Shown here piece after piece: positions 5,001 to 20,000 of a stretch of DNA of 41,761 nucleotides. Below the pieces are notes generated by a model that saw nothing but the letters and a program-made list of their open reading frames with translations, made no database searches and had not been told where the DNA came from. Location of the stretch: NCBI GenBank assembly GCA_016926155.1, contig JAFGPC010000094.1, positions 1 through 41,761 on the forward strand, given 5' to 3'. This DNA is from Sedimentisphaerales bacterium. GTDB taxonomy: Bacteria > Planctomycetota > Phycisphaerae > Sedimentisphaerales > Anaerohalosphaeraceae. Within the stretch, counting starts at the first letter, position 1. The number at the start of each line of letters is the position of its first letter. Made by a program: the position numbers and the translations under genes.

Positions 5001-5472
5001 AATATCTCCTTGCCGATGTGATTTGATTCTTTGTTTTAATCTTACCCTCATCATTCCGATAAGAGATTGTTTCCAACTTGATAAACGATAATCGCCAGTC
5101 CTTTGTATCGTCTGCATAAAAAGCGACCAAAACAGTATCACGGTATTCGCTGATCGCATTTCTGCCTTTGAGATATTCAATCGCCAAATTGCGAAGAGTT
5201 GTTCTTGCTCTTTCTAATTTTGTTCCCTGACTGACCTTAACGGTAAGGACATCTAGAACTGTTCCTTGAGGATCACGGTACTGTCCAATACGTTTGAAAC
5301 TGCTGATATGGTCACGAAAGGGTTGAAAAACACGATTTCCCTGCCATGGCCCCATTGTTTTGGAGGAATCAAAATCGTTGAATACATTGATCAGCAGCTT
5401 TAGAAGCTGTTCTTCTGAAAACGCTTTCTCAAAGGTGGTTTTTATCAGTTCAGCTGCCTGTCTTTTTTCCAT
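2086..5472 (-). CDS. Eco57I-like N6-adenine DNA methyltransferase
   Basis: This protein of 1128 residues has a gamma-class adenine methyltransferase core. A KGTYYTP segment is at 411-417, the SAM-binding motif I DPAIGSGAF at 525-533, and the catalytic motif IV NPPY at 701-704. An insert of about 105 residues lies between the YTP segment and motif I. The C-terminal third (about 830-1060) looks like a TaqI/Eco57I-type target-recognition domain. The N-terminal 250 residues are helical and resemble the leading region of type IIG and PglX-like enzymes, but I see no clear PD-(D/E)xK nuclease motif, so cleavage is more likely supplied by the neighbouring PLD-helicase. An AGGA site 6-7 bp before ATG 5472 supports the start. 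Only 15 bp separate it from the helicase gene upstream. It probably marks self DNA. Confidence 0.88.
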   Translation of the reverse strand: MEKRQAAELIKTTFEKAFSEEQLLKLLINVFNDFDSSKTMGPWQGNRVFQPFRDHISSFKRIGQYRDPQGTVLDVLTVKVSQGTKLERARTTLRNLAIEYLKGRNAISEYRDTVLVAFYADDTKDWRLSFIKLETISYRNDEGKIKTKNQITSARRYSFLVGENEPSHTAQQQFVPLLQDTFNNPTLSQLEEAFNIEKVTKEFFTKYKELFHKVQEHLEDLLKKDKTIREDFESKSIETSAFAKKLLGQIVFLYFIQKKGWLGVPKEKNFGEGDKSFLRSLFKKATTEGKNYFNDYLEFLFYEALAIERKSADPSWYKPFNCRIPFLNGGLFEPIADYDWENTEIVIPNDIFSNTEVNKEGDIGTGVLDVFDRYNFTVKEDEPLEKEVAVDPEMLGKVFENLLEVKDRKSKGTYYTPREIVHYMCQESLINYLDTTINGQKGSFLAIGDNQYDMFGNKKRTGQLKLEESSTKIIIPREDIEDFIKHSHLIVNDTRQEKKSWQLPDSIQNDADVFDEALEKIKICDPAIGSGAFPVGLLTEIVNARQALTQFMSKSESNPNRTPYHLKRDCIHNSIYGVDIDPSAIDVAKLRLWLSLVVEEESITEVEALPNLDYKIVCGNSLLGYGYRPSGLDKIEELKNDFFDETNNTEKRKLKQNIDSAIEKQFAGTEKSLGFKLSFDFQVNFSEIWHDQKGFDIVIGNPPYVNIVNLEKKFRTIYKKIFSITKNKVDLYAYFIVKGLQLLKPNAILSYIVSHTWKATTSFEKLRKVIFSNYKLLKIVDLNFGVFEATVKPVVVLIQNTTHNDYTIKVYNDEFVQVNTVDVREVLLEQEYSLDTLNIPKEKELFKKIELNSIPLSEIIRFSRGIKTSNDNKFILNNPKDKDCKPVYRGKNIKAFQLNWTGEYVWYRPDLMREKTGCLPHSVEFFEVPFKLVTQRVNSSMQLLVAYDKCGNYFLDTTNVSNYSTWDKKTSMKYLCGLMNSNVINFYYCKKYRMPTIGGYELHSVPIKKTDFKTQSLFDLVVDYILWLKNSDYNNNTWPPYFEQIVNSMVYELYFEEELKNANRDVLKYLTDLKPISDDMTDQQKLEIIESEFNRLYDKIHPVRNNLFYMDSIPEIRIIKGLDKDENN

Positions 5473-5487
5473 ATTCTGTCCTAAAGA

Positions 5488-8400
5488 TTATGACTTCAGT
5501 AAATAGCCAGAAAGAATCACTTCCCTTTTATTTGCACTAGGTATTGTGTAAAGGTGTAGAAATTTTTCGGGCTGGGGAATATGACGTCTTAGGATCATCA
5601 ATATTTTTAATGGTTCCTCAATGATCTCAATTTCGCCTTTAATATCTTTGGCAGTTCGTTTTGCAACACTACCATCTTCCAGAATCCGCCGAATCATATT
5701 CAAATAATCCTCATCAGACTCTGTAAAACCACCATAGGAAAGGAATTGTTTGTCGTTAAGCCGATTAAGAATGTATCGCAGGTTTGATCGTCCTCCCCGC
5801 CTTCCGGAAGGCTCATCACCGATGGTAGTATCCAGCTCAAATTTATGTTTGTTAGCTGACAGCATATCAAAATAATTCTCGGGTGGTTCTTGGCGTAAAG
5901 TCTCTGGCTTACATTCGAGCTTATCTACGGCATCAAAGAAGGTGATTTCCTCTACCTTCGTTCCTTCGTTTGTATAGAATTTTTTTAAGTGTCCCTGCCT
6001 AAAGAATGTAACCAAACGATTTTTTGAAATGGTCTCTGTTTTGAAACCGGAACGAGCCTTGCGAGGTAGTGACTTAATTTTTTTGAACAGAGATGAGTCA
6101 TTATCTCTTATTTGACGAATCACGTCCAGATACTTTAACTCTGTATCGCCTTCTTCCTCTTCACCAGTATAGGTTTTTTTGTTATTTAAAGTGTCAAATA
6201 ATTGCTGTGAACCTATTTCTTCTCCATCGGATAAATATTTAGCATCTTCTCCGAGAATGTTATGAAACAATTGTATTTTAGATACAATGTTAGCTTCCAA
6301 CCCCAAATGGACATCCGATTGAGTTGTCGGAAAGAAATTGAAAATATGGATATGCTGATGTTCAGTACCAAGTCGATTTACACGCCCGGTTCTCTGCATA
6401 ACACGGGTTGGATTCCATGGTAAATCATAATTAATAATAATATTACCTCTATGCAGATTAATTCCTTCAGCTAGCATATCAGTTGTTATCAGAATACGAA
6501 AGTCGTTTTGCTGCTCCGGATTATTAGGGTCGAAGTTGGCTTTAATCATATCGCGGGCAATCTGGTGTGTATACTTGGCGTTTTCGTTTGTATGCCGACC
6601 CCCTTGACCAGAATAAAAGACAACCTCCAAGGGAAATTCCTTAATCAAATTTTCATATAAGTAATCTCCGGTCTCCCTGGATTCAGTAAATATAATCAGT
6701 TTTTTCCCTGCAAGTGTATCATGAAATTTAAGCTTACTGATGAACTCATCCAACTTAGGATCTTCATTAACCGTTGCCCACAGATTTCGAATCCGCTTAA
6801 GGATATTCAGATCACTTTTGAGATGTTCAGAAAAAGATTCACTGAATTTATCAGACTTATATTTCTGAGCTTTCTCCTGCTCGACGTAGTCTTCAAGTTC
6901 TTCCACACTATCTTTTTCAAGTAGTTCATAAACATCAACTTTTTTGCTGATGTAAACCATACCCTCGTTAAACATTTTGATAAACTTTTCATACGACTCA
7001 ATAAAACGACCTATACTCTGACGGAACGCATAAAAACTGCTTTCTAGCCGTTTTACTAGCAGACTTTTCATAAATCCACCAATGTTTTTTTGTTGCTGAA
7101 GCTGAAAAGCAGTGAGTTGCTCACTTTCAACATAGGTTAAAGGTACATAGCGAGCATATTTAAAATCACGTAGCAATTTTATCGTTTTATTAAAAGTAGT
7201 CTCAATCGAACCACTGAAATGATATGTTATTTTTTTAGGTGGCGATACTTCAGGAAAAGAGAGCCCCTGTTTATGAATATCATCTGAGAAATAATTGGTA
7301 ACGTCGTTTCGGGTTCGTCTTACCATTATATATTTAAGAATCCTATCTCGTATTTCATTAGATACTTCGTTAAGAGCCAACGCATATTCGGGTGACCGTT
7401 TATCCAAACCTACCAGTTTTCCTCTGAGCTTACTAAAAAATTGTTCTAGATTAGGAACACCAGGAATCGCAGAGCGACGTGGTGCCTGGAATAATTTAAC
7501 CTGGGAAAAAATATCATCAATCGTATTATTTAATGGGGTTGCTGATACCAGTATTATTTTTTTTCTTCGACATATTTCAAAAAGACTAGCATAGGATTGG
7601 GTTGTTTCATTACGGAAACGGTGGGCTTCATCAATAATGACAATATCAAACCGATCTGGTGATTTGCGGATGATATGTTCAAGTTTACCGAGTGACTGCA
7701 CTTCATATCGTTGAATGCCAAAATCGAATAACGTGTCGTTCCAGTAAGATTGAAGAACCGGTGGACAAATAATTAATTTACGAGCCGTTGGCATCTGCTG
7801 TAAAAGTAGTGATGTAACAAAAGTCTTCCCTAAGCCGACTACATCCGCTAAAAAGACTCCGTTGTAGCGCTCGAGAATTTTTCGAGCTTGGATTGCCGCC
7901 TGTTTCTGATATTGTAACCGCAAAAATCCTTTGGGGAGAAATTCTTCGAACTCATCCTCAAGATTAATATCTTCTTCAAGATATTCATATATCAGTTTTA
8001 AATAAAGTTCGTAGGGGGTTATCTGGTCATTCAGCCATGTTTTCTTCTGAATTGTGTCAATATACTCTTGACTAAGGTCAACACTCTCTGCCCAAAGCTT
8101 TTCGAATTTTTCCAATGCGAATTTGACATCTTGTCGGTCTTTGAGTTCTACATTAAATTCCCGTTGAGCTACAAGACCAGATTGTGAAAAATTACTGGAA
8201 CCTGTTATAACACTGCCAAAAGTCACATTGCTAACTGGCTTACCATAACGGATGATATACACTTTTGCATGGATGTCCCGGCTGGGATAGGCTCTAATCT
8301 CAAGTTTGCCCTCTTGGATAAATTCTATGAATTTCTTAACTGACTGATGAACTTCTCTATTATCCTCTGAAGAAACCATCTCAGTTTGGAGTGAATCCGA

Positions 8401-8679
8401 AAATTGATTTCTCGTTTTTTTATGAGATTCAAAATCAAAAGTAGACTGTGGATTTGCCGAATTATAGATGTCAACTGCCTTCGAATCGACATCCAATCCA
8501 ACTAATATTCGGATCTTTTCAATGCCATCCAGGGCCCTGTAAATAGCATCAAAGCCACTGGTACGAAAATAACCGACTAACACATCAAAAAAACGGGCAT
8601 ATTCGAGTGTCTTTAAAAATCTGTCATACAGGGCGCTACCTGCCTCATTGGTAAAAAACTTTATATCAGAATCGTTCAT
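5488..8679 (-). CDS. PLD nuclease-SNF2-type helicase fusion
   Basis: This 1063-residue protein begins with a phospholipase-D-like nuclease domain (about 1-195) carrying one HxK...N half-site: H137, K139 and GSSN ending at N163. One HKD half-site implies that the nuclease works as a dimer. An SF2 helicase follows, with motif I GLGKT (282-286), DEAH (350-353), SAT (379-381), motif V TDMLAEGINL and motif VI QRTGRVNR, then about 250 residues of C-terminal extension. This is the likely translocase and effector of the operon, in the role HsdR plays in type I systems or DrmD plus DrmC play in DISARM. AAGGA lies 8 bp before ATG 8679. It is first in the operon and a promoter-like sequence sits just upstream. 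The domain calls are firm; the defence role is inferred from the partners. Confidence 0.88.
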   Translation of the reverse strand: MNDSDIKFFTNEAGSALYDRFLKTLEYARFFDVLVGYFRTSGFDAIYRALDGIEKIRILVGLDVDSKAVDIYNSANPQSTFDFESHKKTRNQFSDSLQTEMVSSEDNREVHQSVKKFIEFIQEGKLEIRAYPSRDIHAKVYIIRYGKPVSNVTFGSVITGSSNFSQSGLVAQREFNVELKDRQDVKFALEKFEKLWAESVDLSQEYIDTIQKKTWLNDQITPYELYLKLIYEYLEEDINLEDEFEEFLPKGFLRLQYQKQAAIQARKILERYNGVFLADVVGLGKTFVTSLLLQQMPTARKLIICPPVLQSYWNDTLFDFGIQRYEVQSLGKLEHIIRKSPDRFDIVIIDEAHRFRNETTQSYASLFEICRRKKIILVSATPLNNTIDDIFSQVKLFQAPRRSAIPGVPNLEQFFSKLRGKLVGLDKRSPEYALALNEVSNEIRDRILKYIMVRRTRNDVTNYFSDDIHKQGLSFPEVSPPKKITYHFSGSIETTFNKTIKLLRDFKYARYVPLTYVESEQLTAFQLQQQKNIGGFMKSLLVKRLESSFYAFRQSIGRFIESYEKFIKMFNEGMVYISKKVDVYELLEKDSVEELEDYVEQEKAQKYKSDKFSESFSEHLKSDLNILKRIRNLWATVNEDPKLDEFISKLKFHDTLAGKKLIIFTESRETGDYLYENLIKEFPLEVVFYSGQGGRHTNENAKYTHQIARDMIKANFDPNNPEQQNDFRILITTDMLAEGINLHRGNIIINYDLPWNPTRVMQRTGRVNRLGTEHQHIHIFNFFPTTQSDVHLGLEANIVSKIQLFHNILGEDAKYLSDGEEIGSQQLFDTLNNKKTYTGEEEEGDTELKYLDVIRQIRDNDSSLFKKIKSLPRKARSGFKTETISKNRLVTFFRQGHLKKFYTNEGTKVEEITFFDAVDKLECKPETLRQEPPENYFDMLSANKHKFELDTTIGDEPSGRRGGRSNLRYILNRLNDKQFLSYGGFTESDEDYLNMIRRILEDGSVAKRTAKDIKGEIEIIEEPLKILMILRRHIPQPEKFLHLYTIPSANKREVILSGYLLKS

Positions 8680-8703
8680 ATAGAAAATTCCTTCGTTTTT
8701 GGG

Positions 8704-8731
8704 ATACTACAATGAAAAAAGCTATTTTCAA
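8704..8731 (-). promoter_or_regulatory. Candidate promoter of the PLD-helicase operon
   Basis: On the minus strand, TTGAAA (8731-8726) is followed after 16 bp by TAGTAT (8709-8704). A start near 8697 would give a leader of about 18 nt containing the AAGGA ribosome site. The -10 box matches consensus at only 4 of 6 positions, so the call is tentative. The rest of the gap from 8680 to 9006 is AT-rich and shows no gene I can support. Confidence 0.4.
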
Positions 8732-9006
8732 CCCAATTCCAATATATAGTGGTACATAAGAGTCCGGAATTTCCAAAAAACGCTGGACAAGAATCTCTTA
8801 CACATAGAATTCCTCCAGATTGCCTTCGGTTCTCTGCTCTTCCTGTCGCCTATAATATTACTCGTAACAAAAATTTCATTCTATTTCAATTTAAACCAAT
8901 ATGATATCATGGTTTGTAAATGAGGCAAGAGTATTACGAGCAAGATGACGACCTTCCGGAAGCATACAACTGGCAATTCAAATACTCTATCATTGGGTGT
9001 AAAATC

Positions 9007-9651
9007 CTATCGGTATCGGGGACAACCTTCCGAAATCCACTCAAATGCCTGCATTCGGTCAATCGTTTCCGGCCAGAAAGGATCATCGACGGGATTTGTT
9101 TCCTCTTCATCCTCATGTACAAAAGAAGGATCTGGGGTATGAGTCCAGTTCCAAAACCATGCATAAAGCAAATTTACATTCCCAAAACCCGCAAGTAGGG
9201 CCTTGTAGACCTCATCTCTATGTTGCTCAACCAGAAAATCTAAGCTATTATCCTCAAGGGGATCCCAGGATTCTTCCTTGACGGGCTTCCAATCAGGATT
9301 TCGTTTCAATAAAGTTAGAATTACCTTTGGATCTAAATCAAGGGATTCCACCCATATGTCATAATCCAGGTATTCGTATGAATCAAAGGCAATATCACAG
9401 AACTCACGATATAATCCTCCAAGCATGAGAAACCGAAAGATACAGTCGTATCGTTCGAACTCTCCGGTATATCTCGTCAAGCCTGCCTTTTCCAGAATCG
9501 CCCAGGCCTCCTTGCCCCAATGAAGTCCTGGCTTGTGCATGAGAACTGAAAACATCTCCTCAGCAACATCATGCATTTCTTCCCAGATCAACTGTTTAAG
9601 GGGGCATGAAGGATTGTTATTTGATTCCGAATTGTGATGTCCTCCCTTCAT
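9007..9651 (-). CDS. Acidic hypothetical protein in the island
   Basis: I do not recognise this protein of about 214 residues. It is acidic and rich in Trp, Tyr and Phe, has no membrane segment or signal peptide, and looks soluble and mostly helical. The C-terminal part has a dense acidic patch (HEDEEETN) before a conserved-looking end. The frame extends to an ATG at 9684, but GGAA 6-8 bp before ATG 9651 is a better ribosome site and the first 11 extra residues are low-complexity; either start is possible. It reads in the same direction as the defence operon but lies 327 bp upstream of it, so it is probably a separate transcript. No function is assigned. Confidence 0.6.
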   Translation of the reverse strand: MKGGHHNSESNNNPSCPLKQLIWEEMHDVAEEMFSVLMHKPGLHWGKEAWAILEKAGLTRYTGEFERYDCIFRFLMLGGLYREFCDIAFDSYEYLDYDIWVESLDLDPKVILTLLKRNPDWKPVKEESWDPLEDNSLDFLVEQHRDEVYKALLAGFGNVNLLYAWFWNWTHTPDPSFVHEDEEETNPVDDPFWPETIDRMQAFEWISEGCPRYR

Positions 9652-9714
9652 ATGTCTTCCATTACCATCCCGACTATTCAACATTAAACCAAAGAATCAA
9701 TGCATAAAATAAGG

Positions 9715-9868
9715 GCACTGCTACATCGTGCCCAGTCAAGGCCCGCCAGAGCCCGCATGAAACACGCAAGCAGTGCCCCTTTCGCCGGGATGGCAAAGGG
9801 GCACCAACATCCGTGCGTTTTCATGCTTCAAAACTGGCGGTTCTGACTGAAACGCATTCGGTCAGTGC
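9715..9868. repeat. 154-bp imperfect palindrome with nested hairpins
   Basis: The arms pair around a centre near 9791. Matching blocks from outside inward are GCACTG/CAGTGC at both ends, AGTCA, CCGCCAG, GCATGAAA, CGCA, and an inner TGCCCCTTT/AAAGGGGCA stem around a short GC loop. The left arm can also fold alone, because GGGCACTGCT (9713-9722) is a perfect complement of AGCAGTGCCC (9769-9778). It lies between the divergent genes at 9007-9651 and 10005-11048. It could be a non-autonomous transposon with long terminal repeats, a recombination or transfer site, or a structured RNA. The symmetry is seen directly; the function is unknown. Confidence 0.8.
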
Positions 9869-9968
9869 AAATCGCTATTCAATTGTCTGTGATTCAGTAT
9901 ATCTAACGTGAAAGCCGATGTCAAAACGGATGTCTAATAATCAAAAAGTAGGGCAAAAGGTTGAAAAC

Positions 9969-9997
9969 TTTACCAATCACTGAAAAAAGTGTATAAT
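9969..9997 (+). promoter_or_regulatory. Promoter giving a probably leaderless mRNA
   Basis: A perfect TATAAT (9992-9997) is preceded after 17 bp by TTTACC (9969-9974). The expected start of transcription, 7-8 bp downstream, coincides with ATG 10005, and there is no Shine-Dalgarno sequence in between. The message for the next gene may therefore be leaderless. Confidence 0.55.
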
Positions 9998-10004
9998 CTA
10001 AACC

Positions 10005-11048
10005 ATGTTTATGGCTGATGAACATTTGAAATTACTTAAGCTTTTGCAGAGACACTTTGAGGAAGCAACAAGGCAGTTTCCTGGTTTAACCTTCGTTTCA
10101 GAAATACGGCCTAAAAAATCCCAAGAACCTCAAGTGCCAAAAGAATACCTACGTAATTCCCAAAATATTGTCAAATTTTGGGAACATAATGGAATAGATA
10201 AAAAAGGAAATCTTGTTATCGCAAGAAGGTGCTGGTTAATTAGGCCGAAAGGTGAAACTTGGAATAAGGACTCGGCTTATCGTAGGTTAAGGAAACTTGC
10301 CGAAGAAGGTATAAGCATTCTCCGATTTATTGACTATCTCAAAGAAGAACGTATCCAAAAAATGTCTCCCCATGATATTGAAATAATGAAAATGTATAGT
10401 CAGTCTGAGCCCATTTTTTTAGAAGGCGAAGAAGAATATAACCACATGAAATATGCGGCAGAGTGGATTTTGAGGTTACATCAACAAGTGAGAAATAACG
10501 TTTTCTGGAGTTCCTATGAATTACCTACCAAGTTCCGCTATGATTCTTGTTCTTGGATAGAGGATGTCTTCTATGAATCCACCCTATACTGCCAGCATAT
10601 GATGCATACCATGGAAGATTGTATGAAAGACCTTGGTGAAACACCGAAAGAAACAAAGCAGGAAAAAAAGATTGTCAAACAGAAAAAGCAAAAGAAGCGT
10701 CCAACTGCTGCTGAAATGGATAATCGCAATAGGTCCGTAGCAATGGCTGCAACAGATATAAAAATGAAATATGATAGATTACCTACAGTTTCAGAAATCA
10801 GTAAGAAGACAAAGCTTACTCATGACCAAATTTATGCAACAAAACCATATAAAGAGGGGGAAATAGCAAAACGGTCGGCCAAGTTAGCTACTGACATGAC
10901 TGGCGGTTGCATAGCATCTAGCGAACTGTTCAAAGACAAGTCTATTGAACACTCAAGGGCCAATAGACGAACAACGTCCGAGCAAATCGAACTGGAAGCT
11001 TTGATAGACCAGCAGGAAATTGACGACTCGAGTGATTCTGCCCCATAG
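10005..11048 (+). CDS. Hypothetical protein with C-terminal HTH-like region
   Basis: This is a 347-residue protein of unknown family. The N-terminal 200 residues are mixed and contain several Trp and Cys residues. A strongly basic linker (about 215-235, repeated KK and QKK) follows. Residues about 245-285 resemble a helix-turn-helix (LPTVSEISKKTKLTHDQIY), and an acidic tail ends the protein. Together this suggests DNA binding, perhaps control of the island's replication or excision genes, but that is inference. It is the first gene of the plus-strand module. The start has a TATAAT only 8 bp upstream and no ribosome site; a second ATG lies two codons further in (10011). Confidence 0.65.
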   Translation: MFMADEHLKLLKLLQRHFEEATRQFPGLTFVSEIRPKKSQEPQVPKEYLRNSQNIVKFWEHNGIDKKGNLVIARRCWLIRPKGETWNKDSAYRRLRKLAEEGISILRFIDYLKEERIQKMSPHDIEIMKMYSQSEPIFLEGEEEYNHMKYAAEWILRLHQQVRNNVFWSSYELPTKFRYDSCSWIEDVFYESTLYCQHMMHTMEDCMKDLGETPKETKQEKKIVKQKKQKKRPTAAEMDNRNRSVAMAATDIKMKYDRLPTVSEISKKTKLTHDQIYATKPYKEGEIAKRSAKLATDMTGGCIASSELFKDKSIEHSRANRRTTSEQIELEALIDQQEIDDSSDSAP

Positions 11049-11058
11049 CTAAACCATT

Positions 11059-11093
11059 ACTTGATAGACTTATCGAGTTTTATCAAGTTTTTA
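11059..11093 (+). terminator. Candidate terminator after the 10005-11048 gene
   Basis: ACTTGATA (11059-11066) and TATCAAGT (11081-11088) form a perfect 8-bp stem, followed by TTTTA. It lies 10 bp after the stop of the gene. The stem is AT-rich and therefore weak. Confidence 0.4.
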
Positions 11094-11255
11094 TCCAGTA
11101 GCCTCTAAAGTTCCTCCCTATCTAACCTCAACTTACTGAAGGATTAAACACGCAAAGTCCTCCCAATCACTGTCATTTTGTCAAATTCCAGACCATTACA
11201 GAGGCCATTAGGCCAAATAAAGCAAACATGTAAATTGAATGGAAAGGCGGACAAA

Positions 11256-11498
11256 ATGTCAAATAGGCAAACAACAAATCAAGTTTATCAACTCTGGGAC
11301 GCAAAAACATTCGGACAAAGACTTAGTCTCAGCAAGCGACAAATCTTTCGTTTGAACGCCTGTGGGAAGATACCTGCTCCTATCAGAATTGGAGGAAGCG
11401 TACGATGGTTATCGGAAGATATTACCGCATGGATCGACATGGGATGTCCTAACCGGCATGAATTCGAATCTAGGAAGGGGATAAATAATGTTGAATGA
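11256..11498 (+). CDS. AlpA-like helix-turn-helix protein
   Basis: This 80-residue protein is built around a MerR/AlpA-type winged helix-turn-helix (SLSKRQIFRLNACGKIPAPI, then IGGSVRW). That pattern is typical of prophage and satellite excisionases and AlpA regulators, which bend DNA for excision or switch on the integrase. The frame extends upstream to TTG 11178, but ATG 11256 has AAGGCGG about 7 bp before it and starts just ahead of the domain. It overlaps the primase gene by 11 bp, so the two are probably translated together. The domain is clear; whether it acts as excisionase or transcription factor is not. Confidence 0.8.
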   Translation: MSNRQTTNQVYQLWDAKTFGQRLSLSKRQIFRLNACGKIPAPIRIGGSVRWLSEDITAWIDMGCPNRHEFESRKGINNVE

Positions 11499-12438
11499 AC
11501 AAATAAATGTTATGGATCTGCTCGTTAGCCTTAGTCTGCAACCTACTGATGTTGGTGGGCAAATCCAAATTCCTTGTCCAAATTGCGGTGATAATAGGAA
11601 GCATTTTTATCTTGATCCGCACTCCGGGCTTGGGTACTGCCACAAGTGCCAGTGGAGCCCGAATGCTTACAAGCTCGTTGAAAAGCTCTCCCCCGGCAAG
11701 CAACCAGCAGACATCTTTAAGATTCTCGAACAGTTCGGCCTCCATGAATCTAACAAAACCCCACCCCCGAAGCCAAAATTACCAACCTATGAAGCCAAGG
11801 CACAACTTCGGCCAGCTACCGAAGAAGAGATCAACCAGCTTGCCCAGATCAAGAAGGTCAGTCCGGAAGCCCTGAAACTACTTCGGCCTCTCATGGAAGC
11901 CAATAACGATGTGATGGTTCTACCGGCTTGTGATCCGGGTAACGTGGATCTGCATTTTAAGCCTTGCGGCTATCTAAAGATTCGCATGGATGGGAAAATC
12001 TTTCGATGGAAAGACCCGAAAACAGACGAATGGAAAGAAGCAAAGTATCCTCAAGCTCCCGGCTCATGTCATGGGCTCTTAGGCTATCCGTGGTTGATGG
12101 ATCAGTTAGCCCTGGACAAGAAGGAAATTCTTATTACCGAAGCGTGGCGGGATATGCTCGCGGCGATAGAACAGGGGTATGTAGCTACGGCAAGTACCGG
12201 GGGAGCAAGCACCGGCTGGAACAAGCCGGACAAGGAGGCTTGGGGCAAGCTATTCTACGATACAGATGTTACTCTCATCTTCGACCAGGACGAGGCGGGC
12301 TTTCGTTGTTGTCGGAAGGCGGCTCAGAGGATTGCTATAGGAGGAGCCCGGTCGGTCCAGATTGCAACGCTACCCTATCCCCTACAGAAGTCGCATGGGA
12401 AAGACCTGCACGATTTTGTGAACGAGGAAAAACCGTAA
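11488..12438 (+). CDS. Zinc-ribbon/TOPRIM primase of the integrated element
   Basis: This 316-residue protein starts with a DnaG-type zinc ribbon: C30-x2-C33 and C51-x2-C54. A TOPRIM domain lies in the second half, with the acidic TEAWRDML segment and the metal-binding DQDEAG, followed by GKDLHDF. This is the short phage and satellite form of primase, which lays down RNA primers for the element's own replication. AGGAAGGGG precedes ATG 11488. The stop TAA shares one base with the helicase start (TAATG at 12436-12440). In P4-like elements primase and helicase are one polypeptide; here they are two coupled genes. The call is firm. Confidence 0.87.
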   Translation: MLNEQINVMDLLVSLSLQPTDVGGQIQIPCPNCGDNRKHFYLDPHSGLGYCHKCQWSPNAYKLVEKLSPGKQPADIFKILEQFGLHESNKTPPPKPKLPTYEAKAQLRPATEEEINQLAQIKKVSPEALKLLRPLMEANNDVMVLPACDPGNVDLHFKPCGYLKIRMDGKIFRWKDPKTDEWKEAKYPQAPGSCHGLLGYPWLMDQLALDKKEILITEAWRDMLAAIEQGYVATASTGGASTGWNKPDKEAWGKLFYDTDVTLIFDQDEAGFRCCRKAAQRIAIGGARSVQIATLPYPLQKSHGKDLHDFVNEEKP

Positions 12439-14009
12439 TGACTGCTTCTAATAAACAATCACGATTGTCCACTTTGATTGCTGCTGCTCAGCCTTTTTTG
12501 CTCTCGACTGTTGATGGGCAAAATCCCTGGGATTTTGAAAAACTACCCCTGGATGAATATGCCTGTCAGAACCATCCTTTTAAGGATGGCCGAATTGTCC
12601 TTGACAATGACCATCCAAGTACGATTGCCGAAAAGTTTTTCAAAATTGAATATGAGGAAGATGGTCGTATTCTACATCATGTTGTTTCCCTGAATACATG
12701 GTTTTTATATGAGAACGGCCAATACAGGGAAATTTCGGAAAAAGATCTGGAAAACCAGATTTGGCGAGTTTGCCAATCATATCAAATTTACCGAAATAAG
12801 AAAATAATTCGCCTAAAATTGACTATTTCATTAGTTCGAAGTATTGTGGCCGCTTTAGCTAGCCTATCGAAGATTGATGTCCCCTCAAACATTATTCCCC
12901 CAGCCTGGTTAAAAAAAGAAAATCAAACCAATCCAGACCAGATTCTCCCAATGGCTAATGGGCTCCTAGACCTATCCAAAGATACTCCCATTTTACTGCC
13001 TCAATCCCCGGGTTTTTTAACCACATTTTATTTGCCATACACATTTGAAAAAAATGTAACTGTACCAAAATTTGAGAATTTCTTGATTGAGATTACATGT
13101 GGCAATCATGAACTTGTGGAATTACTCATTCAATGGATGGGTTATTTACTCACTCGAGATCAGCGTGAACAGCGTTTTTTTCTTGGTTATGGCTCAGGAT
13201 CAAATGGAAAAGGAGTGTATAGCCATATTTGCACTGCTCTGGTTGGATCATTAAACGTTTCAAATGTCCCGCTTTCACGATTTAGCAATCCTTTTGCCAT
13301 AGGAGCGACTTTTGGTAAACGTCTAAATATTACCAACGAAGCATCACGAGAAATCGAACTTCATGCGGAATCTATACTGAAAGAATACACAGGGGGTGAC
13401 CGAATCAGTTTTGAACGAAAATATCGGGATCCTATTGATGATTTTCCAACGGCTAAAATGATGATTCTAACAAACGAATTACCACGATTTCGGGATCGTA
13501 GCGAGGGTGTCTGGCGTCGAGTAATCTTGTGCCCATTTAATGCGGTTATTCCCAAAGAAAAACAAAATAAACGCCTCAAAGAACAGCTTGAAGCGGAGCT
13601 TCCTGGTATTCTGAATCTGGCCATACTTGGATTGAAAAGTCTCCGAGAATCTGGTGGTTTCATCGAGCCAGCAGTATGTCGAGCAGCATTGGATGATTAT
13701 CGTCGGGAAGCAGATCCTATCCGTGCATTTCTGTTGGATAATTATGTACCCAGTTCAGAGTTGGATAAGGTGTACCGCGAGAAAATCTACAGGGAATTAT
13801 GCATTTATTGTGAGGAAAATGGGCATAAAAAACCAAGTGTTGTAACTCTTGGCAAGGAGATCAAACATCTATTTCCAAATGTTGATGCGAATGGACGAGA
13901 CTCTGTTCCTGATGAGAAAGGTAAAAGACAGCGATACTATTCAGGATTACAAAAGAAGGATGAACCTGACTGGAGTGAATATGGCGATGATGATCTCATT
14001 CCGGAGTGA
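12438..14009 (+). CDS. SF3/D5-family replicative helicase
   Basis: This 523-residue protein is related to the C-terminal part of P4 alpha and D5 proteins. The ATPase motifs are Walker A GSGSNGKG (252-259), Walker B-like KRLNITNEA ending near E301, motif C/sensor MMILTNELPRF with N346, and an arginine-finger candidate at RSEGVWRR (354-361). The N-terminal 200 residues match the D5_N-type region. It should assemble as a hexamer on the element's origin. The open frame reaches back to 11964, but that part overlaps the primase in another frame; ATG 12438, coupled to the primase stop, is the sensible start. The repeat cluster downstream is its likely binding site. Confidence 0.88.
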   Translation: MTASNKQSRLSTLIAAAQPFLLSTVDGQNPWDFEKLPLDEYACQNHPFKDGRIVLDNDHPSTIAEKFFKIEYEEDGRILHHVVSLNTWFLYENGQYREISEKDLENQIWRVCQSYQIYRNKKIIRLKLTISLVRSIVAALASLSKIDVPSNIIPPAWLKKENQTNPDQILPMANGLLDLSKDTPILLPQSPGFLTTFYLPYTFEKNVTVPKFENFLIEITCGNHELVELLIQWMGYLLTRDQREQRFFLGYGSGSNGKGVYSHICTALVGSLNVSNVPLSRFSNPFAIGATFGKRLNITNEASREIELHAESILKEYTGGDRISFERKYRDPIDDFPTAKMMILTNELPRFRDRSEGVWRRVILCPFNAVIPKEKQNKRLKEQLEAELPGILNLAILGLKSLRESGGFIEPAVCRAALDDYRREADPIRAFLLDNYVPSSELDKVYREKIYRELCIYCEENGHKKPSVVTLGKEIKHLFPNVDANGRDSVPDEKGKRQRYYSGLQKKDEPDWSEYGDDDLIPE

Positions 14010-14014
14010 AATGC

Positions 14015-14320
14015 GTCCAACATGTCCAGGAACGTCCATGATCAATCTCATTCTTTCTGGACGGGAAAACCTTGGTTTTTTGAATTTAAATTGGCTTTTT
14101 TGTGATTCTGTCCAGGATGTCCAGGTTAGATATAACAAATAGATATAAAAATAAATCGAAGTAGGTAAGAAGAAAAAGGAAGGGTATTAAGATGCATATA
14201 TATAAACAATGGGAAATAACATGGACAACTTGGACACTTGGACGGATCGCTTCTGATGATACCATAATCGCCGTTTTTTTTGTCCAGGTTGAGAAACCTC
14301 ATATTGGACGGCTCTTGGAC
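14015..14320. repeat. TGGAC/GTCCA repeat cluster, candidate replication origin
   Basis: Twelve copies of TGGAC or its complement lie in this gene-free gap of about 345 bp. GTCCA occurs at 14015, 14024, 14034, 14110, 14119 and 14282; TGGAC occurs at 14058, 14222, 14231, 14239, 14305 and 14316. Neighbouring copies are often 8-10 bp apart, about one helical turn, and many read GTCCAGG. An AT-rich stretch (14126-14220) sits in the middle. Less than one copy would be expected by chance in both strands. Its position directly after the SF3 helicase gene suggests iterons with an unwinding region. No gene is visible between 14010 and 14355. Confidence 0.7.
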
Positions 14321-14355
14321 GCTTAACAAATGTAGTCGAGCGGAATTCTGCTTCC

Positions 14356-14628
14356 ATGGATCATAAGAGCAAAAATATGATACCCTTAAACATACCCACT
14401 CCTGGGGAACCTAGGAGAATCACCCAATTTCCAGAAGTCTTGACGGAGGCAGAATTGATCGATTTCTTGCGTATTCGCGAGATCAGTAGTTCCAAAGATC
14501 CTCATAACGTAATCGAACATCTAAAACGGATGCGTGGCTTGCCCCGTCTGTCAATTTGTAACAAAGTGCTGTACCCACTGGAGGCAGTCCGGCAGTGGAT
14601 TGAGAAGGAAACTACCTATGGAAACTGA
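14356..14628 (+). CDS. Small HTH/excisionase-like protein
   Basis: This 90-residue protein contains LTEAELIDFLRIREI followed by LPRLSICNKVLYPLEAVRQWIE, the layout of the MerR-like HTH_17/excisionase fold (helix-turn-helix, then a wing, then a helix ending in xxWI). It lies between the candidate origin and the integrase, the usual place for an excisionase or recombination directionality factor. The start has no strong ribosome site; an alternative ATG eight codons further in (14380) would not remove the domain. With the protein at 11256-11498, the element has two such factors. Confidence 0.7.
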   Translation: MDHKSKNMIPLNIPTPGEPRRITQFPEVLTEAELIDFLRIREISSSKDPHNVIEHLKRMRGLPRLSICNKVLYPLEAVRQWIEKETTYGN

Positions 14629-14712
14629 TTTGACTGGCACACGTTTTTTTACCCTTTATAATGATCCCCGGATCAGCCCGAGCTGTTACCGGCATCAGAA
14701 AGGAGGTGAATT

Positions 14713-15927
14713 GTGAAAGTAATGGTAACACTCTGGCAAAGACCGTCCGCGAATGGCAAGCGGTTTACGTACTATCTGCTCTATACCGATGAGAATGGCC
14801 GACGGCGGCAGAAGTCACTTGGCCATGGCGACAGGCGGAGGGCGGAGAAACAGCGGGCTCAATTGGAACGGGAACTGCGGATGGGTGTTGTGGAACCGGA
14901 ATCCATGCGGCTTAGTGAGTTCTGGCAGGATTGGCTGAAACGAACGGGAGATCAGATAAGAGAAAGCACTCAAGTCGAGTATGCGACGGCGATGAAACAT
15001 TTTATTGAGGCAATTGGTGATATTGACTATCAGCAGATTGGTTTGCGTCATGCTGAGCGTTTCCTCCAGCTTCGCCTTGATCAAAAGGATAGTCCAGCCA
15101 CTGTGGGCAAGAAGCTTCGCGAATTGCGACGGATATTCCAACTGGCAACAGATCGGGGGCAATTGGAGAGCAATCCTCTTGCCAGAGTCAAACAGCCAAG
15201 GGTGCCCAAAAAGTCAGTGCGGACGTATTCCCAGAAGGAATGTGAGCAAATTCTGAGGGCTTCTCGGCAATGTCGTGAAAAATACGCTTTACGATGGGAC
15301 CTGCTTATCCCGCTCGCCCTTACCACAGCGATGCGTAAGAGCGAGCTTCTGAATCTGACCTGGGCAGATATTGACTTCGAGGCCCAAACCATTGAGGTCC
15401 GACCCAAAGCGGACACCATAGAGACGTGGCGTTGGGAGGTCAAGGATTCTGATTGCAGAACACTTCCGCTAACAGAGGAACTGATATCCTTGTTGACCGA
15501 GCACCAAGCCAATCAGAAACCTGGTTATCCGTATGTTTTTGTGCCCGCCCAGCGGTATGATCACATCCAGCAACTACGGACCAATGGCAAGTGGAGCTAC
15601 TCTGCTTCCCGGATCAAGGTCGTAAACAACTTTACCCAGCATTTTAAGCAGATATTGAAGAAGGCAAACGTGAGGCATGGCAAATTCCACGATCTTCGCT
15701 GTACCGCCCTCAGTAACCTGCTTGCTCAAGGACTCAGTCAACATGATGTGATGGTCATTGCTGGTCATGCCAAGTTTGACACCACCCAGAGGTTCTACCT
15801 TGCTGTAGCGGACGATCTGGTCAGTCGTGCAAGGCAAGCTGCGGAGAAAGTGGTCAGTAAAAGTCTGTTGCAATTCTGTTGCAGTGCCATTCCGGAGGGT
15901 TCCCATGAAAAAAGCTCCCAAACATAA
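14713..15927 (+). CDS. Tyrosine recombinase (integrase) of the island
   Basis: This 404-residue phage-type integrase has an N-terminal AP2-like arm-binding region, a SAM-like core-binding domain (about 65-160) and a catalytic domain. The catalytic set is R208 (AMRKSELL), K244, H326-x2-R329 (HDLR), H352 (GHA) and the nucleophile Y362. It starts at GTG 14713, decided by a near-perfect AGGAGGTGAA at 14701-14710. The gene points at the 3' end of tRNA-Asp, 27 bp beyond its stop, the usual arrangement for tRNA-integrating islands. It should catalyse integration into and, with an excisionase, excision from that tRNA gene. All catalytic residues are present. Confidence 0.93.
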   Translation: MKVMVTLWQRPSANGKRFTYYLLYTDENGRRRQKSLGHGDRRRAEKQRAQLERELRMGVVEPESMRLSEFWQDWLKRTGDQIRESTQVEYATAMKHFIEAIGDIDYQQIGLRHAERFLQLRLDQKDSPATVGKKLRELRRIFQLATDRGQLESNPLARVKQPRVPKKSVRTYSQKECEQILRASRQCREKYALRWDLLIPLALTTAMRKSELLNLTWADIDFEAQTIEVRPKADTIETWRWEVKDSDCRTLPLTEELISLLTEHQANQKPGYPYVFVPAQRYDHIQQLRTNGKWSYSASRIKVVNNFTQHFKQILKKANVRHGKFHDLRCTALSNLLAQGLSQHDVMVIAGHAKFDTTQRFYLAVADDLVSRARQAAEKVVSKSLLQFCCSAIPEGSHEKSSQT

Positions 15928-15954
15928 CTGCTTGGAAGCTTTAGACTTATGTAA

Positions 15955-16028
15955 CGAGGCCGAAGGGGCTCGAACCCTCAACCTTCGGATCGACAGTCCG
16001 ATGCTCTAACCAATTGAGCTACGGCCCC
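15955..16028 (-). tRNA. tRNA-Asp (anticodon GTC)
   Basis: The minus strand folds as a complete cloverleaf of 74 nt. The acceptor stem GGGGCCG pairs with CGGCCTC (one G-U), the D-arm is GCTC/GAGC, the anticodon stem TCGGA/TCCGA encloses loop CTGTCGA with anticodon GTC, and the T-loop is TTCGAGC. The discriminator base is G73, as expected for tRNA-Asp. CCA is not encoded. The 3' half is the likely attachment site of the adjacent integrase, and the gene appears intact after integration. Confidence 0.95.
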
Positions 16029-16047
16029 GAATATATTCAGACGCGTA

Positions 16048-16075
16048 ACTATAACCAACCTTTCCTGACTGTCAA
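16048..16075 (-). promoter_or_regulatory. Promoter of tRNA-Asp
   Basis: A perfect TTGACA (16075-16070) and TATAGT (16053-16048) are separated by 16 bp on the minus strand. The expected start lies about 12 bp before the mature tRNA 5' end at 16028. Confidence 0.75.
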
Positions 16076-16115
16076 GCGTTTTTCACTTAAAAGTCGCAAA
16101 ATTGCACTGTACGGA

Positions 16116-16934
16116 TCATATCAGATCGGCCGCCTTGTCCGGAATCCAGCCCCGATTCCCATCGGCCAACTCAATATGCCACCAGCCGGTCCGCTGCTCG
16201 ATAAGGTCAAACTCCGATCCGGCATGCAGGGACTCCTTGAATGCCTCGGCATAGGAAGCCCCATCCCCTTGCCGGGCTGTGATCGACTTGGCAATGATTA
16301 CTCCACTTCGAAAATGGTTCTCTATATAGTGATCGACCGCGACAGAACCGGCCATGCATAAGAAAATCATACCCAAGACAATCGAAGTAATGACGGTTCC
16401 TGGAATACGAGACCACCAGACTCGCGCTGTCAGCGCCAAGCAGCAAAAAGCGAAACACAAACAGGCCACAATAAATTTGGAGCGGGGAGAAAAATCATAA
16501 TGCCAGAAAAAGAGTCTCTGGAGAACCCGTTTCCGTGCCCGGGTCTGTACCTGGTCCACACTTTGGCTTCGCGCAAACATCAGATTTTTCTGAATGTCCG
16601 GATTGGTCGGGTCCAAGGCTTGGGCCCGACGATAATTAAGGATCGCCCTACCGATGTCGTCACTGAGCAAATATGCATTAGCCAGGTTATAGTATAATCC
16701 GGCGTTTCGGATACCTCCTTGTTCTATAATACTCTCATATCCAAGGACAGCCTGTTGATAGAGTTGACCCGCCGCCTGCGGATCATCAGTGATATTATTC
16801 GCCTGACGGAATGCATCATTGGCCTGTCGAAAAAGAGAATACAGATCTTGCTCATTCATCCTTGTAGCATAACAAGCCGGCATGCAAAGAATGGTGGCCA
16901 ATAAATATAGATTGAAAATGCTGCTTCGTCTCAT
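16116..16934 (-). CDS. batE: BatE-like TPR and SH3-domain membrane protein
   Basis: This 272-residue protein has a signal peptide, two to three TPR repeats (about 25-115, including GLYYNLANAYLLSDDIGRAI), two membrane helices in the middle (about 150-210) and a C-terminal bacterial SH3 domain (about 215-272, ending GNRGWIPDKAADLI). This is the usual BatE layout. TPRs and SH3 suggest a scaffold at the envelope that contacts other Bat proteins or the wall. Its ATG overlaps the BatD stop as ATGA, so translation is coupled. It is the last gene of the operon, and no clear terminator is seen before the tRNA. Confidence 0.85.
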   Translation of the reverse strand: MRRSSIFNLYLLATILCMPACYATRMNEQDLYSLFRQANDAFRQANNITDDPQAAGQLYQQAVLGYESIIEQGGIRNAGLYYNLANAYLLSDDIGRAILNYRRAQALDPTNPDIQKNLMFARSQSVDQVQTRARKRVLQRLFFWHYDFSPRSKFIVACLCFAFCCLALTARVWWSRIPGTVITSIVLGMIFLCMAGSVAVDHYIENHFRSGVIIAKSITARQGDGASYAEAFKESLHAGSEFDLIEQRTGWWHIELADGNRGWIPDKAADLI

Positions 16935-18772
16935 TTAAATTTCTTCTCAATTGCTCGTATCAAGGTCATAATCTCTTCGCTGTTTTCTTTAAAATCACTC
17001 AACTGTCCACCGGCATACACAGATGCCTGTAATGCTTCAAGCCAACGACGAAACTCCAGAGCGACGGAGGCGTCGTTGCAGCGGATTAGAATAAGCTGCT
17101 CGCAATCCAGAGAAGTCAAAGAAACCGCCGTGCGATCGAAATGGTCGGCAATATACTGTTTCATGGCGGCCGCCAATGCAGCTCGTTTCTCGTCTCCCAA
17201 TAAAGAGCCTGTTTTGCTTATCCTCGCGATAGCCCGGCTGCAGGCCGTTTTTCGCCGTCGAGCCGCCTTCTTTTGGGGGGATTGACGGGAGAGAAATTTG
17301 GCCATAATACTTCCCAGCAGTGTCACCAGAGGAAGACCCCATATCGCTGTATAAATCGGCTGGATCAGAGCAAGAGTTGGAACAAACTGTTGGTTCTTTA
17401 ACACATGGGCATCTTCAATATTGGCGCTGAGCCCCTTCTTAGCGGCTTCGACCTGTCGGCTGACGGAAATCATGGATCGTCCTTCGACATCCGCTGTCGT
17501 GACAATCTTGGTCGCTGCCACATCCAAGGGGATAGGTTCACTGTGAATAGTTATATATTGTTCTTGATCTGTATCAAAATACGTCAAAGGAATTCCGGGG
17601 ATCTCCGTCACATTATCTGATATCGCCCGAAGTGTCTGGGTGAATACCTTCCGGCCATCCTGAATCTCCGGGCCGGCCTGATCGGTGGGAATCTTGAACC
17701 AATCAGCCATATGCGGCACCGATTCCAGGTCCGGCCATTGGACCGGCCTCAAATAGTTCCCTCCTATAAGAATGGTAATCGTGATCGGATCTCCCACATT
17801 AACCGTAGTGGGCTGAGCCGTCGCGCTGATCGCATATCGGCCCACTAAACCATAGAAATCGGCCGGCTTGCCCTGCGCGGGAAGTGATTTCACATCAAGC
17901 TGAACCGGATTGGTCGAAGCGGCAAAACGCTGATAGCGGTACCGGGCGCCAAAAGGATCAGGAAAACCAAAACGATCCCGGCTTTGCACTCGCTCTACGG
18001 CAATATCCGCCGAGATGGTAACCGGATCGATCTCAGCTGGTCCGGACCTCTGTGGAATCAGGAGTTTAGCGAAAGATACTTTAACCGAGGCGACTCCATT
18101 GTGTTCCACCTGCTCGGCAGCATAAGGCACAGCCTGTCCGTTCACGTTCACCGTCCGATTGCCGGACCCGGACAGGCTTAAATCTTCTACGAGAAATGCA
18201 TGATTGTTCAGGACCGGCATATTGAAACCAAAATCATGGAGCAGTTGCCCCTGCACAATACTGGCCCATAGGTACCAATGAACAATGACTTCCACCGGTT
18301 CACCAACATAGCAATTGACAGTTGACACTTCGATCTCGATGTCCATCTGTTTCGTCGCTTCCGGTTGGATTACAGTGATCGAAATGGGATTGGTTTGGTA
18401 CGTCTTTCCCTTATGAGTAATGGAAAGGGAGGGCAAGGTAAAGGTTCCAGCGTTGGAAGCGGTTAGAATGTAATTCATTTCCAAACGCTTCGTCGTTTTC
18501 GTTTCCTGCCGATTTCCGATGATAGTCGTTACCGTCTGGGAAACATCCTTATTCCCGGCTGTGCGAGGCTGGAACTGAGCCAGAGGGGATAGATCGGGCT
18601 GGCCCGGTTGATTGTCTCCATCAATGACAATTTTATATAAAAATCCTTCCCCAACATAGATCGGCCTGGATTTGTCCACGGTTGCCTGAATTTGAACTTC
18701 TTCCTGTGCCACAACCACCACCGGCACGATCAATAAACAAAATCCAATCAGAATGCCCCGCATGTACGACAT
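16931..18772 (-). CDS. batD: BatD oxygen-tolerance-family membrane protein
   Basis: This protein of about 613 residues has an N-terminal signal peptide, a large periplasmic region of beta-sandwich domains (opening with VQIQATVDKSRPIYVGEGF, the standard BatD entry), one membrane helix near 470-495 and a cytoplasmic tail. Despite the family name, its biochemical role is not established; it is thought to be a structural member of the Bat complex. ATG 18772 was chosen; GTG 18775 is immediately upstream and has slightly better spacing from GGACTGG. It lies 4 bp or less after BatC and overlaps BatE by 4 nt. Confidence 0.88.
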   Translation of the reverse strand: MSYMRGILIGFCLLIVPVVVVAQEEVQIQATVDKSRPIYVGEGFLYKIVIDGDNQPGQPDLSPLAQFQPRTAGNKDVSQTVTTIIGNRQETKTTKRLEMNYILTASNAGTFTLPSLSITHKGKTYQTNPISITVIQPEATKQMDIEIEVSTVNCYVGEPVEVIVHWYLWASIVQGQLLHDFGFNMPVLNNHAFLVEDLSLSGSGNRTVNVNGQAVPYAAEQVEHNGVASVKVSFAKLLIPQRSGPAEIDPVTISADIAVERVQSRDRFGFPDPFGARYRYQRFAASTNPVQLDVKSLPAQGKPADFYGLVGRYAISATAQPTTVNVGDPITITILIGGNYLRPVQWPDLESVPHMADWFKIPTDQAGPEIQDGRKVFTQTLRAISDNVTEIPGIPLTYFDTDQEQYITIHSEPIPLDVAATKIVTTADVEGRSMISVSRQVEAAKKGLSANIEDAHVLKNQQFVPTLALIQPIYTAIWGLPLVTLLGSIMAKFLSRQSPQKKAARRRKTACSRAIARISKTGSLLGDEKRAALAAAMKQYIADHFDRTAVSLTSLDCEQLILIRCNDASVALEFRRWLEALQASVYAGGQLSDFKENSEEIMTLIRAIEKKFK

Positions 18773-18776
18773 CACG

Positions 18777-20000
18777 TTACCAGTCCTTTTCTACCTTTTG
18801 CTGTGATCGACGTAAAATCATTCGCTGCCGTTTATCCTTTTGCTCCTTATCGAGAATCTCTTCCATCTTTGCCTGGACAGCCTGCATTTCCTTGAGTTCC
18901 TCCTCGCTTATCGGCTGCTCCTGTTGTGATTCTTCATTCGTCTGCTGTTCTTGCTTCTGATCCTGTTGGTGTGTTGTCTCGTTCTGTTTTTCCTGGTTCT
19001 GCTCCCGGTTTTGCGGCTGTTCTTGATTCGCCTGCTGCTCCTGTTGCTGCTGATTCTTAGGCAGCTTATCAATCGCTTTTTGAATCTGCTCGGCCGCCTT
19101 GTCCTGTGCTTCCCCGGCTTGGGACGTGCGGGACTCGTTCAAGTCTTCAAGAGCCTTTTCCTGCTGTCCGACTGCCTCCGCTAATTCCTCTGCTGCCTGC
19201 GTAAGTGGTGGATTTTGTTGTTGAGGCATATCTTGCTCTTCGGTCGCTTCGGATGACTCATCTTGTGCCGCCTGCCGCATTTGTTCCAGCGTCTCCTGCG
19301 TCCGTTCCTTCAGGTCCGACTGTTGCTTGGCAATCTGCTGATTTTCCCCTCGGACCTGTTGCGCCGTTTTTTCTCCCTGTTGTTGCTCCTGTTGGTTTTG
19401 TTGCGTCTGTTCAGAAAGTTGTTGTTGTTCCTTAAGCAGTTCTTTAAGCTTTTCACCCAGATCCTGCTGCTGTTTTTGTTGCTGTTTCTCTTGTTTTTGT
19501 TTTTCAAGCCGTTCCTGCAATTGTTGAATGAGAAGTCGGCTCACTTCAATATTTCGAGCGGCGGATGAATTGTCCGCATCCATCTGCTGCGACTGCCGCC
19601 ACGAGTCAATCGCCTGTTCCAACGAATCGATAGCCGCCTCCGGTTCGTCCTCAGTCTGCTTCTTCCCTTTTTGGAAATATGCATTGCCTAGGTTATATTT
19701 GGCTACCGCCGCTAAGACAGGATCAAAGGATTGGGCGGCGGCCTCCCTATACAGTTCTATCGCATTGTCATAATCTTTTAACTTATAGGCCACATTGGCA
19801 CGATTGTATTGGGCCTGCACGCACTTTTTGTCATCCTTTATTGCACGATCATATGCCTGGGCCGCTTCATCATACTGTCCTCCGGAATACAGACGATTCC
19901 CTTCTTTTACCAGCCCGCGAACGGAAGCCATACAGGCGGATGATAAGAGGACAAAGTATATTACCCCAACAATCCAACGATTACGCCTTACGACGTTCAC
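18777..20000 (-). CDS. batC: BatC-like TPR protein with a glutamine-rich coil
   Basis: This 407-residue protein has a signal peptide (about 1-26), TPR repeats (about 28-105, including EGNRLYSGGQYDEAAQAYDRAI), then about 190 residues dominated by Gln, Glu and Lys that are likely to form a charged coiled coil or disordered rod. It ends in VEKDW, the conserved BatC tail. The start is GTG 20000, supported by GGGAGG 9 bp upstream and by the need to keep the signal peptide; it overlaps batB by 20 bp. TPRs probably dock to the VWA proteins BatA and BatB. The Q-rich tract is unusually long. Confidence 0.85.
   Translation of the reverse strand: MNVVRRNRWIVGVIYFVLLSSACMASVRGLVKEGNRLYSGGQYDEAAQAYDRAIKDDKKCVQAQYNRANVAYKLKDYDNAIELYREAAAQSFDPVLAAVAKYNLGNAYFQKGKKQTEDEPEAAIDSLEQAIDSWRQSQQMDADNSSAARNIEVSRLLIQQLQERLEKQKQEKQQQKQQQDLGEKLKELLKEQQQLSEQTQQNQQEQQQGEKTAQQVRGENQQIAKQQSDLKERTQETLEQMRQAAQDESSEATEEQDMPQQQNPPLTQAAEELAEAVGQQEKALEDLNESRTSQAGEAQDKAAEQIQKAIDKLPKNQQQQEQQANQEQPQNREQNQEKQNETTHQQDQKQEQQTNEESQQEQPISEEELKEMQAVQAKMEEILDKEQKDKRQRMILRRSQQKVEKDW

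Follow-up and report, generated by a model that had tools for sequence, protein, structure and literature searches.

Positions 14015-14320 of the window (the 41,761-nucleotide stretch analysed here, one whole contig among the 222 of a 5.0-Mb genome) very probably constitute the replication origin of an integrated island, which would be bound by the C-terminal winged helix of the helicase encoded directly upstream. Twelve copies of the iteron TGGAC/GTCCA lie there in two mirrored half-arrays around an AT-rich core (Table 1), and comparable clusters of other short repeats occupy the same place after many related helicases. The first-pass annotation had proposed this candidate origin from the repeats, and the comparison with helicase relatives, in which 55 of 136 downstream regions carry a cluster, strongly supports it.

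Array architecture and the adjacent helicase

A motif search of the window recovered all 12 annotated copies of TGGAC/GTCCA between 14015 and 14320, in the left half on the minus strand at 14015, 14024 and 14034, the plus strand at 14058 and the minus strand at 14110 and 14119, and in the right half on the plus strand at 14222, 14231 and 14239, the minus strand at 14282 and the plus strand at 14305 and 14316. The array immediately follows the primase and helicase genes, as annotated, with the first iteron starting 6 bp past the last base of the helicase stop codon. Its count is far above the fewer than one copy that had been expected by chance: 2,000 dinucleotide shuffles of the gap (14010-14355) gave a mean of 0.64 and a maximum of 4 for TGGAC, and 12 copies of any 5-mer, homopolymers included, were reached in 6 of the 2,000. 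Among 320-bp stretches scanned across the window, only AAAAA ties the count of 12. The excess is purely local, as the whole window holds 76 copies of TGGAC against 76.3 expected. All six GTCCA-N3-6-GTCCA phased pairs in the window fall inside the gap (0.30 expected), and across the 5-Mb genome this pattern occurs 45 times, less often than the backwards control pattern (54); once the six gap pairs are set aside, any two pairs in the genome list are more than 5 kb apart. Same-strand neighbours within groups are spaced 8-11 bp apart, which bears out the claim of helical phasing in both directions. The half-arrays are also near-mirror images (---+-- on the left and +++-++ on the right), a symmetry absent from the first-pass annotation.

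Table 1 Features of the window discussed in the text
Feature	Positions	Strand	Description
Cargo	651-8679	-	AAA/SMC-like ATPase, type IIG restriction-modification enzyme, PLD+Snf2 helicase
Excisionase/regulator-like ORF	11178-11498	+	PHROG 2790, 66; real start possibly further in
Toprim primase	11488-12438	+	Pfam Toprim_2, PHROG primase; overlaps helicase start
D5/SF3-type replicative helicase (Rep)	12438-14009	+	C-terminal winged helix; candidate iteron-binding initiator
Left half-array	14015-14123		GTCCA x3, flipped TGGAC x1, GTCCA x2; spacings 9, 10, 24, 52, 9
AT-rich core	14124-14221		98 bp, 26% GC; TAGATATAACAA/TAGATATAAAAA direct repeats inside
Right half-array	14222-14320		TGGAC x3, flipped GTCCA x1, TGGAC x2; spacings 9, 8, 43, 23, 11; inverted relative to left
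Small HTH-like protein	14356-14628	+	PHROG 668, E 0.0013
Tyrosine integrase	14713-15927	+	Pfam Phage_integrase, E 2e-24; PHROG 1
tRNA-Asp, intact	15954-16029	-	ARAGORN, Rfam tRNA

The core between the half-arrays, annotated as AT-rich, is so in comparison with the remainder of the gap (44% GC), and it is the likely site of melting. Close to its right edge, at 14205-14213, lies AACAATGGG, which resembles AACAATAGG, a sequence that occurs in the corresponding gaps of loci L002, L041, L042, L112, L114 and L115. The two are possibly one fixed element next to drifting iterons. The box AATAGG was found in 16 of 36 close gaps (a set that includes the window and L002) against 5.7 expected; it is left as a lead, because the window gap itself lacks AATAGG and has AACAATGGG instead.

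The helicase, which we take to be of the SF3 type following the literature and the first-pass annotation, matches Pfam DUF5906 above the cut-off; its matches to D5_N, RFX and Pox_D5 fall short of the curated cut-offs, and its PHROG matches are primase/helicase families. A profile of nine relatives matched the SaPI5 primase-helicase (7ola) at E 3.6e-40 and, over the C-terminal winged helix, RFX5 at E 1e-8, and hhalign paired the helicase with P4 alpha at 99.3% probability. A Foldseek search with the AlphaFold model placed a 7ola chain at rank 1. The C terminus of the model contains helices at residues 447-460 and 468-478 and strands to 506, with pLDDT of 64-88 across 441-500 and blocks at 431-480 that reach 79-88; the model is moderate overall and serves as support only, because its mean pLDDT is just 61. 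Judged from these profile matches, the protein has a Rep-type C-terminal DNA-binding domain, spanning roughly residues 425-523, which would be the part that contacts the array.

In the proposed mechanism, the helicase would bind the TGGAC iterons via its winged helix, and the phasing of the copies would align helicase protomers along a single face of the double helix. The two mirrored half-arrays would load two opposed hexamers, which would melt the AT-rich core and unwind bidirectionally, with primers supplied by the adjacent Toprim primase and copying of the excised circle finished by the host polymerase.

A different origin type, in which the repeats matter solely through pairing, is very improbable. 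Its precedent is pRN1, whose origin is a stem-loop 3' of an SF3 replication gene (PMC4234260, in excerpt), and the gap here does contain inverted repeats. However, predicted folding of the gap does not surpass that of shuffled versions (z -0.65, equalled by 22 of 100), on which ground a large stable pRN1-type stem-loop was rejected, and phased same-strand copies are kept in relatives.

Iteron clusters after related helicases

Among 98 genomes from the family and the order, 24 encode the helicase or its relatives, counting the window's own. Relatives for the wider comparison were the best 80 of at least 549 and the best 80 of 309 confirmed, from genome and viral contig scans; removal of 20 loci whose helicase was at least 90% identical to another left 140 of 160, and four with less than 250 bp downstream were set aside to give 136. 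Each downstream or upstream stretch was shuffled 200 times and each control window 100 times. In this set of the best 80 per scan, a 6-mer cluster at P ≤ 0.01 was detected downstream of the helicase in 55/136 loci, upstream in 2/132 and in 19/840 control windows, and at P = 0 the counts were 44, 1 and 14. The remaining 81 of the 136 have no downstream cluster at P ≤ 0.01; among them, short arrays are visible by eye in L031, L033 and L036, and no array is visible by eye in L118 or L126. The first-pass annotation had named an absence of repeats from related islands as evidence against an origin, and the 55 clusters are the outcome for helicase relatives, islands or not.

Cluster-bearing loci come from Deltaproteobacteria, Gemmatimonadetes, Bacillota, Chloroflexota, Streptomyces, Corynebacterium and viral contigs, and their iteron cores differ (TGGACA, GTGACA, GGAACA, AGGACA, GGTAAC, CGGACG, CTCCAC, AAGTG and others). 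For example, a Paenibacillus relative has nine AAGTG sites at the matching place (L054), and L002, from the same family as the window, has six GGACA sites flanking a 111-bp spacer of 36% GC. Primase and helicase are fused in L002, L007 and L009. The 55 significant arrays, the window and L002, which is not among the 55, make 57 arrays, of which 42 comprise two blocks with two or more sites each. Main orientation is opposite between the blocks in 34 of these 42 and the spacer is more AT-rich in 36, both counts being purely descriptive because splitting at the largest spacer favours spacers. Same-strand phasing at 8-11 bp is common to the relatives though the repeat sequence differs: across the 56 arrays other than the window, 143 pairs at this distance are on the same strand against 14 on opposite strands, and 0 of 2,000 orientation shuffles reach 143.

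Iteron similarity among 53 proteins correlates with winged-helix identity (rho 0.19) and with helicase-core identity (rho 0.26), and the partial correlations are 0.12 for the winged helix (permutation P 0.002) and 0.22 for the core. After matching on core identity, two of three bins showed iterons to be more alike where winged-helix identity was higher. Covariation does not single out the binding domain, because the core tracks iterons at least equally well, and a recognition code read from it was set aside as not decisive.

These clusters also bear on the idea that the sites are operators, through which the small HTH protein or the excisionase-like regulator would control its own gene and the integrase. 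The gap does lie upstream of the HTH and integrase genes, and two of four weak sigma-70-like matches in it (1.7 expected) overlap TGGAC sites. Nonetheless, clusters sit at the same place in 55 of the 136 relatives from the best 80 per scan, whereas tblastn found a homologue of the HTH protein in 0 of 140 helicase loci, some of which end early; a protein of this small size also readily escapes such a search. An operator, moreover, would not need as many as twelve sites mirrored about an AT-rich core, and regulation is an improbable explanation of the array.

The distribution of clusters suggests, from sequence comparison, that they go with the helicase family rather than with phage-inducible chromosomal islands (PICIs). 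What stands out most in the result is that they occur after many helicases of the family and far beyond PICIs. Such downstream clusters offer a sequence-only route to the origins of uncharacterised islands and phages, and the pairs of iteron and winged helix form a series for testing recognition and double-hexamer loading.

The island and its presumed integration site

The left part of the window is an island: its integrase lies at a tRNA-Asp, its replication genes are a primase and a helicase, and it has an excisionase-like ORF and cargo of restriction/defence type. GC content is mostly 31-46% up to about 14000, with one 50% window near 12000, and 45-59% from 14500. Genes to the right of the tRNA-Asp are chromosomal in type and include a Bat aerotolerance operon; on that side, 18501-19500 has a strong AT skew (-0.44) and CAACAA repeats within a TPR protein gene. 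The island is incomplete here because the contig ends at base 1. PADLOC matches in the cargo include type IIG restriction-modification (E 1e-233) and the PLD+Snf2 helicase C3a139 (E 7e-62), and the cargo is possibly a single multi-gene defence system. Between ORFs 9007-9684 and 10005-11048, GC-rich inverted repeats GGGCACTGCT / AGCAGTGCCC were seen by eye at 9700-9860. The second of these ORFs (347 aa), which lies ahead of the replication genes, has no Pfam, PHROG or PADLOC match, and the excisionase-like ORF has no Pfam match at 1e-4. The primase has zinc-ribbon-like cysteines at its N terminus.

The tRNA-Asp, 26 bp from the end of the integrase gene, is the presumed integration site, and an Rfam scan of 8700-16200 returned nothing except this tRNA. 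A 40-bp copy of the tRNA-Asp 3' half (95% identity) is located on another contig (C161:30360-30399, equivalent to L192 1501-1540), about 0.5 kb from a transposase-like ORF and with no tRNA predicted there. From its sequence, this orphan half is a candidate distal att site. BatD, the chromosomal neighbour gene of the island, is present in 19 of 37 genomes of the family, a count that takes in the window's own. No empty site was readable: 16 of 19 BatD loci in other genomes were scanned for tRNAs, with 0 tRNA-Asp and 1 tRNA-Tyr, and the 20 kb around the L002 helicase (L198) contain no tRNA. The first-pass annotation had added that the element may replicate on its own after excision. The position of the integrase beside an intact tRNA-Asp, with chromosomal genes beyond, supports that proposal in part; for the second att site there is no more than a candidate, and excision, with replication following it, would fit the arrangement seen.

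Arm-type sites for integrase or excisionase and partition/incompatibility sites are likewise short phased repeats, and an integrase is encoded nearby. Such a role is scarcely credible for the array, which is separated from the tRNA by about 1.6 kb that include the integrase gene. In relatives, clusters follow the helicase, and a similar integrase was found in just 16 of 140 loci (best 80 per scan). The Pfam search found no partition gene among 10 proteins. An origin bound by the helicase remains the preferred reading of the repeats.

Comparison with known origins

The array would represent an established type of origin carrying an iteron of its own, in a host for which no report of such an origin was found among titles and the starts of abstracts, in a search little aimed at Planctomycetes. 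In gram-negative PICIs, two iteron sets lie around an AT-rich region 3' of rep, and the rep-ori of one such PICI, EcCICFT073, supported plasmid replication in E. coli (PMC6092414, in excerpt). The window has the same arrangement, with iterons directly 3' of rep in two sets flanking an AT-rich region, and its helicase is homologous to that of SaPI5 (7ola). In SaPIs, the Rep C-terminal domain recognises an iteron origin downstream (PMC7581432, in excerpt). Unlike in these elements, the iteron here is TGGAC and the host is a planctomycete, the Toprim primase is a separate gene (the SaPI5 and SaPIbov1 primases are AEP in the same excerpts of PMC7581432), and HTH and integrase genes directly follow the origin. 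In the PICI gene order, int lies by the rpr regulator, followed by xis-pri-rep-ori, with induction by a helper phage; in the incomplete element here, the excisionase-like ORF, primase, helicase and origin occur in that order, and the integrase comes after the origin.

Cch2 of SCCmec binds direct repeats downstream of its gene, and its isolated C-terminal domain binds them too (PMC7581432, in excerpt). The likeness extends to the D5 type of the helicase, its C-terminal DNA-binding domain and the short iterons that closely follow its gene, whereas the putative SCCmec origin is reported to have three AAGTG iterons, and priming is by the CCPol-MP pair (same excerpts).

In the sequence record of phage P4, the origin carries six annotated type-1 repeats, spaced 10, 11, 22, 43 and 10 and with one copy flipped. 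This six-site plan of three copies, one flipped and two is that of the left half here (9, 10, 24, 52, 9), and the right half, read from the outside in (11, 23, 43, 8, 9), differs in having two outer and three inner copies, the counts being swapped. The helicases are homologous (hhalign 99.3%), and the primase matches the N terminus of P4 alpha (BLASTP E 1e-5). In contrast, the P4 iteron is GGTGAACAG, P4 has a single six-site origin array and a distant crr in place of two facing half-arrays, and its primase and helicase are fused in alpha, whereas here they are two overlapping genes. TGGACA and TGTCCAG are each similar to the repeat of P4, so the orientation of the iteron with respect to the AT-rich side can be read either way. 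No second, crr-like TGGAC cluster was found in the window, which holds an incomplete element.

Tests of a finer conserved geometry were mixed, making it a lead and not a result. With the window excluded, the order of 22 bp outside and 43 bp inside occurs in 11 of 56 arrays, where 5.9 would be expected (P 0.011), and the reverse order in 4 of 56, where 4.8 would be. A looser test with no inner/outer rule gave 13 against 11.4 expected, not above chance, and enrichment of opposite-strand pairs was not significant under orientation shuffling (22-25 bp, P 0.087; 40-45 bp, P 0.52). A tentative and rather doubtful proposal is that a single origin class of conserved geometry is common to P4, PICIs, SCC elements, planctomycete islands and many viruses. 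It would consist of two opposed half-arrays of phased iterons, each with one flipped copy that lies some 22 bp from the outer group and some 43 bp from the inner one; on that proposal the geometry would position two hexamers, because it stays while the iteron sequence drifts.
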